64,000 nucleotides of DNA. Origin: Propionispira arboris (GTDB lineage Bacteria > Bacillota > Negativicutes > Selenomonadales > Selenomonadaceae). Positions 22,822 to 28,489 of the stretch are shown one piece after another. The notes beneath the pieces are model-generated. The model ran no database searches, was not told where the DNA came from, and saw nothing but the letters and a program-made list of their open reading frames with translations. The stretch covers positions 248,001 through 312,000 of the forward strand of contig NZ_FNZK01000001.1 in NCBI RefSeq assembly GCF_900109225.1, written 5' to 3'. The stretch's first letter is position 1. Every line of letters starts with the position of its first letter. Position numbers and translations under genes: made by a program.

Positions 22822-22874
22822 GGATGGTGACATTAAGTTGGCCAAACCTTCGAAATTCATTTAAATTTTGGAGG
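22822..22874 (+). promoter_or_regulatory. RAT overlapping an SD-sequestering stem, first PTS gene
   Basis: GGATGGTGACATTAAGTTGG at 22822-22841 followed by CCAAACC to 22848 fits the BglG/LicT RAT pattern. CCTTCGAAATT (22847-22857), which overlaps the RAT 3' end, can pair over 11 positions (two G-U) with AATTTTGGAGG (22864-22874). The latter contains the SD of the PTS gene, whose ATG is at 22883. RAT and SD-blocking stem are therefore mutually exclusive. Confidence 0.7.
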
Positions 22875-22882
22875 AATTATTT

Positions 22883-24793
22883 ATGAAAAAGTATACAGAA
22901 CTAGCAAAGTCCATCGTGGAAAATGTCGGTGGAAAAGACAATGTTATATCGTTAGCACACTGCTATACGAGGCTTCGTTTCAAATTGCGTGATGAAAAAA
23001 AAGCAGCAACCGATGTATTGAAAAATACAGAAGGCGTTGTTACGGTCGTGCAAAGTGGAGGCCAGTATCAGGTTGTTATCGGCAATGAAGTGGGTGATGT
23101 TTATGATGAAATCGTAAAATCGCAAGGAATTGCCGGTGCAAGCAGTGGGACTGAAAATGCTGAGCCGGAACAAAAAATGAATGTGATTGATCGCTTCATT
23201 GATATTGTGTCCGGCATTTTCACGCCTGTTTTGGGGATGCTGGCAGCCAGCGGGATGATTAAAGGATTCACTGCCCTGTTTGTGGCTTTTGGTTTTATTG
23301 AGGCGGCGGGTGGTACCTATCAGATTTTGCAAACAATCGGTGATGGCTTCTTTTATTTTTTACCGATCTTTTTGGGTTTAACAGCAGCTAGAAAATTCAA
23401 AATGAATGAATTTTCTGGCATGGCACTTGGTGCGGCATTGGTATATCCGTCAATTAGTGCAATTATCAAAGGGGAACCACTTTATCATTTATTTACCGGG
23501 ACCCTGTTTGCTTCTTCAGTACAAATGGAGTTTTTAGGAATTCCAGTGATTTTAATGAATTATGCATCAAGCGTTATTCCCATTATTGCATCCGTATATT
23601 TTGGTGCCAAGGTAGAACGTTTCTTGCTGAAAACGATTCCGACGATGGTTAAAGGGTTCATGGTGCCATTTTTTACGATTTTAATCGTTATTCCATTGAC
23701 GTTTATCATCATTGGTCCTGTATCAACTTGGGCAGGACAATTGGTAGGTTTCGTAGCAAATGGTATTTTCCAGTTGAGCCCTGTTTTAGCAGGTTTATTT
23801 ATTGGGGCATTTTGGCAGGTCTTTGTTATTTTTGGTATGCACTGGGGGCTTGTACCAATTATGATAAATAATATTTCGGTTCAAGGGTTTGATCCGGTTG
23901 TAGTTACGTATTTTGCGGCATCTTTTGCCCAAACTGGTGTTGTTTTGGCTATTTTGTTGAAGACAAAAGATAAGAAACTCAAATCACTTTGTGTGCCAGC
24001 GTTTATTTCAGGGATCTTTGGTGTTACCGAACCAGCAATTTATGGGGTAACACTGCCACGAAAAAAAATGTTTATCATCAGCTGTATTGGTGCTTCGATC
24101 GGTGGTGGCTTGATTGCTTTTTGGGGTATTAAACTATATATGTTTGGTGGTTTAGGCGTTTTTGGGTATCCATGTTTTGTTGATCCGGTATCGCATGATA
24201 TCAGTGGTATGAAATTTGGCATGATTGCTTCTTTGGCAGCTTTTCTTATTGGCTTTGGATTAGCGCTTCCATTCTACCATGATGAGAAGGTGGCTGAAAA
24301 AATTTCGGCTGCTGATAAAGACGGTAATAAAATTTTGGAAAAAGAAATATTGATTAGTCCTTTGATTGGGGAAGTGAAATCGTTGGATGAAGTGCCAGAT
24401 GAAGCATTTTCTTCTGGGGTATTAGGCAAAGGGGTTGCGATTCTTCCTTCCGAAGGTAGAGTTATTGCGCCGGCAGATGGAACGGTAGCGACACTTTTCC
24501 CAACTAGTCATGCTTTGGGCTTGATAACAGATAAAGGCACGGAAATTCTGATTCATATTGGCATTGATACTGTAAAATTGAATGGGCAGTATTTTCAAGC
24601 CAAGGTCAAACAAGGCGATCGGGTAAAATGCGGTCAGGTTTTAGTTGAGTTTGATTTGAAAAAAATTCAAGCAGCTGGATACGCTGTGATTACGCCTGTA
24701 CTGATTACGAATTTTCAGCAGTACTTGGATATTATTATATCGAAAAAGGATACGATTCATTATGGGGAAAACCTCATTACGGTTATTAATTAA
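22883..24793 (+). CDS. bglP: Beta-glucoside PTS transporter EIIBCA (first copy)
   Basis: A 636-residue phosphotransferase permease. EIIB comes first with phosphorylated Cys27 in [15 protein letters not shown] spans about residues 100-460 with conserved [17 protein letters not shown]-terminal EIIA has the active His558 in [15 protein letters not shown]. Order B-C-A matches beta-glucoside permeases of the BglF/BglP type. It phosphorylates aryl- or alkyl-beta-glucosides during import. ATG 22883 is the true start; upstream in-frame codons lie inside the RAT. It is highly similar to the second copy (26579), so the region is a tandem duplication. Its own licT and bglA neighbours are destroyed. Confidence 0.94.
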
Positions 24794-24897
24794 GCAGTCT
24801 GATCAGATTGCTTGGCAGTCTGCGATCGTGTATTTTGTTTTTCAGCAGTGATAGCTTATTATGATGAGCTTGTTTTTTACAATTGAATACCAAGGAA

Positions 24898-24981
24898 GGA
24901 TTGTGACTGGTAATACAGGCAAAACCTAGATTTATGTTGGCTGATTAAAAATTGATTTAGCCAACATAAATCTGGTTTTTT
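24898..24981 (+). promoter_or_regulatory. Classical RAT-terminator pair between PTS gene and bglA remnant
   Basis: GGATTGTGACTGGTAATACA at 24898-24917 followed by GGCAAAACC to 24926 is a near-consensus LicT RAT. AACCTAGATTTATGTTGGCT (24923-24942), which overlaps it, pairs with AGCCAACATAAATCTGGTT (24959-24977), followed by a run of seven T. Bound antiterminator would prevent the terminator and let transcription reach bglA. That gene is now only a remnant. Confidence 0.85.
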
Positions 24982-26438: not shown

Positions 26439-26517
26439 GGTAAGATTTCCAAGTTGCGCCTTTGTGACAGCTTGTTTTCTAATATACAATAAAGGAGGAT
26501 AGGAAAAAGTTCTATTT

Positions 26518-26570
26518 GGATGGTGACATTAAGTTGGCCAAACCTTCGAAATTCATTAAAATTTTGGAGG
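26518..26570 (+). promoter_or_regulatory. RAT overlapping an SD-sequestering stem, second PTS gene
   Basis: Same architecture as 22822-22874: RAT 26518-26544, then CCTTCGAAATT (26543-26553) able to pair with AATTTTGGAGG (26560-26570), which contains the SD of the PTS gene (ATG 26579). The tract after the stem is CTTTATTT, a poor terminator tail, so blocking of translation is the simpler reading. Confidence 0.7.
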
Positions 26571-26578
26571 CTTTATTT

Positions 26579-28489
26579 ATGAAAAAGTATGTAGAATTAG
26601 CAAAATCCATCGTGGAAAATGTCGGTGGGAAAGACAATGTTATATCGTTAGCACACTGCTATACGAGACTTCGTTTCAAACTGCGTGATGAAAAAAAAGC
26701 AGCGACGGAAGTATTGAAAAATACGGAAGGCGTTGTTACGGTCGTGCAAAGCGGAGGTCAGTATCAGGTTGTTATCGGCAATGAAGTGGGTGATGTTTAT
26801 GATGAAATCGTAAGATCACAAGGAATTGCTGGTGCAAGCAGTGAGGCTGAAAATGCTGAGCCGGAACAAAAAATGAATGTGATTGATCGCTTCATTGATA
26901 TTGTGTCCGGCATTTTCACGCCTGTTTTGGGGATGCTGGCAGCCAGCGGGATGATCAAAGGCTTCACTGCGATGTTCGTGGCTTTTGGTTTTATTGGAGC
27001 CAAGGGCGGAACTTATCAGATATTGCAAACAATCGGTGATGGATTCTTTTATTTTTTACCAATCTTTTTGGGTCTAACAGCAGCCAGAAAATTCAAAATG
27101 AGTGAATTTTCTGGTATGACAATTGGGGCAGCGCTGGTGTATCCATCGCTTAGTGCAATCATCAAAGGGGAAGCACTTTATAATTTATTTACTGGGACGA
27201 TATTTGCTTCTTCGGTAAAACTGGAGTTTTTAGGAATTCCGGTTATCTTGATGAATTACGCATCCAGCGTTATTCCTATTATCGTTGCCGTATATTTTGG
27301 TGCTAAAGTAGAACGTTTCTTGTTGAAAACGATTCCAACAGTGATTAAGGGCTTCATGGTGCCATTCTTTACGATTTTAATTGTCATTCCATTGACGTTT
27401 ATTATAATTGGTCCTGTATCGACATGGGCAGGTCAGTTGGTCGGTTCAGCGGCAAATGGTATTTTCCAGTTGAGCCCTGTTTTAGCAGGCTTATTTATTG
27501 GAGCATTTTGGCAGGTTTTTGTCATGTTTGGCATGCATTGGGGGCTTATCCCAATTATGCTGAATAATGTTTCTGTTCAAGGATTCGATCCGGTTGTCGT
27601 TACGTATTTTGGCGCATCGTTTGCCCAAATCGGCGTCGTTTTGGCTATCTTATTGAAGACCAAAAATAAGAAACTTAAATCACTCTGTGTGCCAGCTTTT
27701 ATTTCGGGAATTTTTGGTGTTACGGAACCAGCAATTTATGGGATTACTCTGCCACGCAAAAAAATGTTTATCATCAGCTGTATTGGCGCTTCAATTGGTG
27801 GCGGCTTGATTGCTTTTTTTGGTGTAAAACTGTATATGTTTGGCGGTTTAGGTATTTTTGGCTATCCATGTTTTGTTGATCCCGTATCGAATGATATCAG
27901 TGGCATGAAATTTGGTATCATTGCTTCTTTGGCAGCGTTTCTTATTGGCTTTGGATTAGCGCTTCCATTCTACCATGATGAGAAGGTGGCTGAAAAAATT
28001 TCGGCTGCTGATAACGATGGTAATAAAATTCTGGAAAAAGAAATATTGACCAGTCCGTTGATCGGTGAAGTGAAATCTTTGGATGAAGTGCCGGATGAAG
28101 CGTTTGCTTCAGGGGTATTAGGCAAAGGAATCGCTATAATTCCTTCCGAAGGCAGAGTCACTGCCCCAGCAGATGGAACCATAACGACAGTTTTCCCCAC
28201 CGGTCATGCGTTGGGATTGATTACAGATAAAGGTACAGAAATTCTCATTCATATTGGGATTGATACTGTGAAATTAAATGGGCAGTATTTCCAGGCAAAG
28301 GTCAAACAAGGTGATACGGTAAAATGCGGACAAGTCCTTGTTGAATTTGATTTGGAAAAGATAAAGGCAGCAGGTTATTCTGTGATGACACCTGTAGTGA
28401 TTACAAACTTCCAACAGTATTTGGATATTATTGTGACAGAAAAGGGAAACATAGATTACAAGGAAAATCTTATTACGGTTATTGCATAA
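26579..28489 (+). CDS. bglP: Beta-glucoside PTS transporter EIIBCA (second, intact-operon copy)
   Basis: A 636-residue near-duplicate of the protein at 22883. It keeps Cys27 of EIIB ([11 protein letters not shown]), [15 protein letters not shown] in EIIC and the EIIA histidine in [15 protein letters not shown]. Differences are scattered conservative changes, so both copies should be active. It is preceded by licT and a RAT and followed without terminator by the porin gene. An apparent longer frame starting at TTG 26516 runs through the RAT and is not used; ATG 26579 has the SD GGAGG 8 bases upstream. Confidence 0.94.

Follow-up and report, generated by a model that had tools for sequence, protein, structure and literature searches.

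Putative translational control through RAT elements of a LicT/BglG-type protein at a duplicated beta-glucoside locus of Propionispira arboris

The beta-glucoside locus and its classical RAT-terminator

The window, a 64,000-nucleotide stretch of the 4.26 Mb genome of Propionispira arboris (Negativicutes, Selenomonadaceae), contains a duplicated beta-glucoside locus with two PTS EIIBCA genes and one intact gene for a LicT-type antiterminator; all window features described below are on the + strand. EIIBCA gene 1 (22883-24793) is of the beta-glucoside type and possesses Pfam EIIB, EIIC, and EIIA_1 domains, and EIIBCA gene 2 (26579-28489) is likewise assigned by its Pfam domains. The licT-like gene (25602-26438), recognized by CAT_RBD and PRD domains and by alignment A1, is encoded near the RAT sites and is their presumed cognate effector. 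The antiterminator operon is likely to be transcribed from a promoter at 25377-25405 (TTGACA-17-TAATAT), which is proposed on consensus match only. A second licT copy, upstream of PTS gene 1, has been reduced by an internal deletion to a short remnant from about 22690 (22690-22750), with its leader ORF and terminator still intact ahead of the PTS gene. Elsewhere in the genome there is a second CAT_RBD regulator (G000:C37:65082-65246).

Four 27-nt RAT-like sites, at 22519, 22822, 25427, and 26518, and one classical 29-nt RAT, at 24898, are found in the window. The classical RAT (GGATTGTGACTG...CAGGCAAAACC, 24898-24926), supported by sequence, folding, and a sub-threshold RF03530 match, overlaps a terminator (24924-24986; sequence and folding) that consists of a long stem followed by TTTTTTTG, with a T7 tail, and that precedes a truncated GH1 fragment. 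It is the sole RAT of the canonical RAT-terminator type in the window, in contrast to the PTS sites at 22822 and 26518, and it serves as an internal control, as in the preliminary description. The GH1-like (phospho-beta-glucosidase) start after this site ends within a few codons (MNKFPEAFLWGSVIAAN*, 25038-25091), marking a truncated gene. At Rfam gathering cut-offs no match was obtained in the window; RF03530 scored 31.2 bits there, at the classical site only, against a gathering score of 80 bits, and no RF03530 match above cut-off was found in six related genomes.

RAT-27 and the SD-hiding stem before the PTS genes

Both PTS genes are preceded by the same RAT-like sequence, GGATGGTGACATTAAGTTGGCCAAACC, at 22822-22848 for gene 1 and at 26518-26544 for gene 2; the first is identified by sequence and by RAT helices that covary in relatives, the second by sequence and pattern match. 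This element, RAT-27, folds as GG-A-UGG-UGA-CA..UG-G-CCA-AA-CC, with the G-G/C-C closing pairs, the A opposite AA, the 3-bp stem, the asymmetric loop, and the upper stem of a RAT hairpin. The final two bases of the RAT (CC) open a stem of 11 pairs, G-U pairs included, with the sequence CCTTCGAAATT-CATTTA/CATTAA-AATTTTGGAGG (22847-22874 and 26543-26570). The stem ends in GGAGG (22870-22874 and 26566-26570), which is 8 nt from the ATG at each gene (22883 and 26579). Both stems are supported by sequence, folding, and covariation, and that of gene 1 also by accessibility; in RNA folding the SD stem is present in the minimum-energy structure. The preliminary description, in which 11 bases of the RAT 3′ strand pair with a segment holding the SD 8 bases from the ATG, is therefore accurate for both PTS genes. 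The stem that pairs the SD is conserved and mutually exclusive with the RAT fold to the extent of the CC; on paper the exclusion is partial, because these two bases are all that the RAT and the SD stem have in common.

Neither of the tails behind the two stems, AATTATTT and CTTTATTT, forms a U tract, and a RAT overlapping a U-tract intrinsic terminator is absent at 22822 and 26518. The lack of a good U tract had been noted before and extends to relatives, in which such tracts are nearly absent.

Covariation and predicted SD accessibility

In an alignment of 19 related sites, 95.7% of the cells in the named structure are paired, and double-change cells number 23, where shuffles give 7.9 (0/500); when the partner is displaced by a single column, pairing falls to 59-68%. 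Inner and upper pairs of the RAT both covary, and the compensatory changes at 5-22 (GC/AU/CG) and 11-18 (AU/GC) imply that the 27-nt element is arranged like a classical RAT. In genus g23 the upper stem of the RAT is lengthened by long paired extensions. An independent set of 40 listed sites from outside the Negativicutes, aligned with loops dropped and eight stem pairs counted (the innermost pair, next to the loop, frequently fails to form), gave 42 double-change cells versus 20.4 in shuffles (0/500). The arm-shuffle test returned 122/138 against 106.5 expected (0/5000), and 200/320 against 155.7 (0/5000) in the wider listed set, which includes a few chance matches: seven loci (L193, L203, L207, L237, L268, L275, and L282) were judged by eye to be chance or terminator cases and left out of the accessibility and tail counts, and are still counted in this test. 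Shuffle tests correct for relatedness incompletely, a shortfall eased by the slide controls and by the second set, which is distant.

SD accessibility was predicted by folding the listed sites from the CC of the RAT to past the start codon. The median unpaired probability of GGAGG was 0.00 in the native sequence, 0.50 with a shuffled spacer, and 0.48 with the CC made unavailable, and the mean loss of stem energy without the CC was 5.0 kcal/mol. These values imply that a LicT protein holding the RAT should loosen the stem and not wholly dissolve it; as the SD is just about half free with the CC blocked, full release would need ribosome competition or more. At L205, L217, L246, and L290 the stem is weak or an alternative one forms, with 0.5-0.6 unpaired.

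Distribution of the element

The spread of the element was surveyed with a degenerate RAT pattern followed 8-38 nt on by GGAGG, over a collection of species genomes, which yielded a non-random sample of at least 118 stretches. With chance and terminator cases removed, at least 72 distinct sites have GGAGG and then the start codon of a long ORF. The ORFs downstream of the 72 listed sites mostly start MGKYxxLAxxIVxxVGG, and among the matches listed the target proteins were EIIB-EIIC-EIIA in 7/7 tested from other taxa. RAT-27 with its SD stem occurs, among the matches listed, in Enterococcus, Vagococcus, Lacticaseibacillus, Lactococcus, and Paenibacillus, and also in Clostridioides difficile, Clostridium, Lachnospiraceae, Erysipelotrichaceae, and Brachyspira. 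Family relatives have the arrangement ahead of PTS genes, an outer-membrane protein gene, and the antiterminator leader. A CAT_RBD plus PRD gene was seen in 30 of the 72 listed loci of the wider set, in stretches of up to 8 kb with the RAT off-centre. R1 matches above about 35 bits are found almost solely in genomes that also encode a CAT_RBD protein; matches below about 30 bits, in the genome itself and in related ones, were counted as chance. Scan matches in Enterobacterales and Bacillus were rejected as classical terminators with GGAGG merely inside the stem.

In the listed sites the RAT-27 form (CATTnnGTTGG) goes with start codons and the ACTG..CAGGC form of RAT with U tracts. The exceptions, L222, L255, and L257, are of Clostridium type and have a canonical 29-nt RAT ahead of a hidden SD; they are possible intermediates between the canonical and RAT-27 forms.

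A conventional account would be ordinary transcriptional antitermination, in which the stem following the RAT would act as a weak intrinsic terminator and burial of the SD would be incidental. A permissive terminator scan does list both window SD stems as terminator-like, the experimentally studied LicT/BglG targets considered here are terminators (PMC1489936, PMC12628678), and some Selenomonas EIIBCA genes have an extra RAT-terminator upstream. However, U tracts find no support in relatives, since five or more T within the 8 nt after GGAGG occur at 2 of the 72 listed sites and a T run never exceeds 3. The GGAGG is kept, with an SD-to-start spacing of 7-8 nt in 60 of these 72 sites, covariation links the 5′ arm to the 3′ arm that bears the SD, and at 25427 the real terminator lies about 50 nt farther downstream, outside the direct reach of the RAT. 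Weak termination by the SD stems was rejected on the tails in relatives, despite the permissive scan, and this account as a whole is very improbable. The wiring to translation suggested in the preliminary description is instead favoured by the conservation of the SD, of its distance from the start codon, and of the pairing in which it is hidden, along with the near-absence of U tracts.

Tandem RATs were observed on EIIBCA genes of Selenomonas and g23 (L068:8999-9138, L174:2578, L175:3366, L176:4344, and L181:3327). The promoter-proximal RAT is apparently in a terminator (GCGGGAU...AUCCACGC, with a T run) and is followed by RAT-27 and the SD stem, which suggests control of both transcription and translation.

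A leader ORF and terminator upstream of licT

At 22519 and 25427 the RAT and SD stem would govern a leader ORF of six codons, with an intrinsic terminator adjoining its stop. Upstream of licT the module consists of a 27-nt RAT (25427-25453; sequence and pattern match), an SD-hiding stem CCTTCGAAAA/TTTTTTGAAGG (25452-25476; folding and arm-shuffle test) with the SD GAAGGAG at 25472-25478, a leader ORF MKNSLK* (25489-25509) with the stop TAA, and a terminator at 25508-25555, placed by sequence geometry. The 5′ arm of this terminator begins 19 nt past the leader start codon, close enough for a ribosome on the leader ORF to reach it. The duplicated, degenerate leader, from which the antiterminator gene is deleted, retains a RAT (22519-22545; sequence and pattern match), a leader ORF MQNSLW* (22580-22600; sequence) with the stop TGA at the position kept from the other copy, and a terminator (22599-22643; sequence geometry).

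The leader module is present in genera g1, g9, g21, g22, and g23 and families f8 and f17, and its ORF varies in relatives from 1 to 32 codons: ORFs of ten codons occur in g21 and g22, in g9 they extend through the terminator, and in g23 they are bare start-stops (GTG-TGA or GTG-TAA). In the relatives measured, the distance from the leader start codon to the terminator 5′ arm is usually +10 to +21 nt (17 nt in Propionispora), short enough for a ribosome to reach the arm; in two f8 genomes (L151 and L154) the terminator is about 28-31 nt off, at or beyond the reach of a single initiating ribosome. The leader ORF at L154:5343 (-), with its terminator about 28 nt away, is apparently frameshifted to MNK* relative to L151. 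The identity of the stop is exchanged at a fixed codon between the two window copies (TAA/TGA), in g21 (TGA/TAG), and in g23 (TGA/TAA). Since the terminator is beyond the direct reach of the RAT, a ribosome on the leader ORF would be the natural link between them; the ORF/terminator geometry and the stop conservation fit leader-ORF attenuation, with translation of the leader ORF as a prediction.

The relay through the ribosome, though not the hidden SD as such, could be challenged by supposing that the leader ORF is accidental and that a PTS RAT-SD element was copied ahead of a constitutive terminator or attenuator unrelated to it. The RAT and stem sequences of the leader and the PTS genes are very similar, which makes copying plausible, and the sequence and length of the leader ORF differ among genera. 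An accident sits poorly, however, with the recurrence of the module in those five genera and two families, with a stop that changed identity in place three times, with the narrow range of start-to-terminator distances, and with a similar module ahead of a glycosidase-like gene in L182, and we regard it as rather unlikely. The L182 case (L182:5652, - strand) has all four parts (RAT, SD stem, leader ORF, and terminator) ahead of a glycosidase-like ORF of 1208 aa, implying that the leader module may extend beyond licT. In other relatives licT is apparently under a classical RAT-terminator, and at L053:1160 and L063:6006 a RAT-27 stands upstream of licT with no terminator, where the hidden SD may be that of licT itself.

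An effect mainly on mRNA stability, for example through access of RNase III or RNase Y, with changes in translation secondary, has some precedent: RNase III cleaves the RAT/terminator stem in Enterococcus faecalis nagY, and the same paper, citing earlier work, relates that roles other than antitermination have been proposed for terminator-less RATs (PMC12502629). Such an effect would leave the GGAGG-specific pairing, the SD-start spacing, and the conservation of the leader stop unexplained, and is exceedingly improbable as the main action of RAT-27.

Proposed mechanism and significance

It is very likely, judging from the sequences, that a LicT/BglG-type protein acts through the RAT as a translational activator at the PTS genes and by translation-relayed antitermination at licT. 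From the observed covarying stems, their spread, the ORF/terminator geometry, and the conserved stops we infer LicT binding, the direction of regulation, and ribosome-mediated read-through as follows. Without inducer the RAT hairpin would not be held, and its closing CC would join the SD-burying stem. Once inducer is present, active LicT would bind and hold the RAT, withdrawing two closing C-G pairs from the SD stem, which would loosen and allow a ribosome to land. At the PTS genes, and at the outer-membrane protein gene in relatives, the freed SD would directly start translation, whereas at the licT-like gene it would serve a very short leader ORF. The ribosome loaded there would cover or unwind the 5′ arm of the terminator that follows closely, and with this arm blocked transcription would continue into licT. 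The preliminary description had anticipated the switch at the PTS genes; it was incomplete in overlooking the form with leader ORF and terminator and the spread of the element. An antiterminator probably works through the ribosome at licT, while the same RAT elsewhere switches PTS translation directly; in Bacillota and Brachyspira the direct form would be a widespread, unrecognized output of LicT/BglG proteins.

If RAT-27 acts on translation, the bgl PTS genes of Enterococcus, Clostridioides, Clostridium, and gut Lachnospiraceae are often mis-modelled, RAT searches that require a terminator overlook such sites, and the suggestion that RATs act beyond antitermination becomes directly testable. 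The leader form, if true, would be a case in which a protein controls a terminator by permitting ribosomes to load on a minimal ORF.

Comparison with known systems

Textbooks treat BglG/LicT proteins as transcription antiterminators, and synthetic biology employs them in that role. Gordon et al. in 2015 reportedly suggested that RATs may act otherwise than by antitermination. In Streptococcus mutans bglP a terminated transcript of 109 bases has been described (PMC1489936), and the bgl RATs of Clostridium acetobutylicum act on terminators (PMC12628678), while a review of C. difficile lists the bglG RNA motif RF03530 as of untested function (PMC11477304). Terminator-less RATs exist and may do something else, according to the E. 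faecalis NagY paper, which cites earlier work (PMC12502629). RAT roles beyond antitermination are thus recognized for terminator-less RATs (cited in PMC9981650 and PMC12502629); the SD sequestration proposed here does not appear in those papers. No description of an SD-sequestering RAT was found in Rfam or in the open-access literature, to which the search was confined.

One closely related system is the BglG/LicT/SacY RAT-terminator (RF03530 bglG-cis-reg; bgl operons), with which the present system shares a CAT-PRD antiterminator whose PRD histidines are conserved, a RAT hairpin in which paired and unpaired segments follow the same order, a 3′ strand shared with the competing stem, and EIIBCA targets. 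It differs in that an SD with its start codon takes the place of the U tract at the end of the competing stem, and in that the RAT is 27 nt long with CATTnnGTTG in place of CTG..CAG. Translational ON riboswitches and T-boxes similarly have an alternative stem that hides the SD and an upstream element that releases it, but the sensor here would be a trans-acting, PTS-controlled protein and not a small molecule or tRNA. In leaders of the tna, trp, and erm type, a ribosome on a short ORF decides whether a terminator or another stem is formed. A ribosome on a short leader ORF would decide terminator formation at licT as well; the regulated step, however, would be ribosome loading and not stalling, with an antiterminator protein as the gate, and the ORFs of the module can be a bare start-stop.
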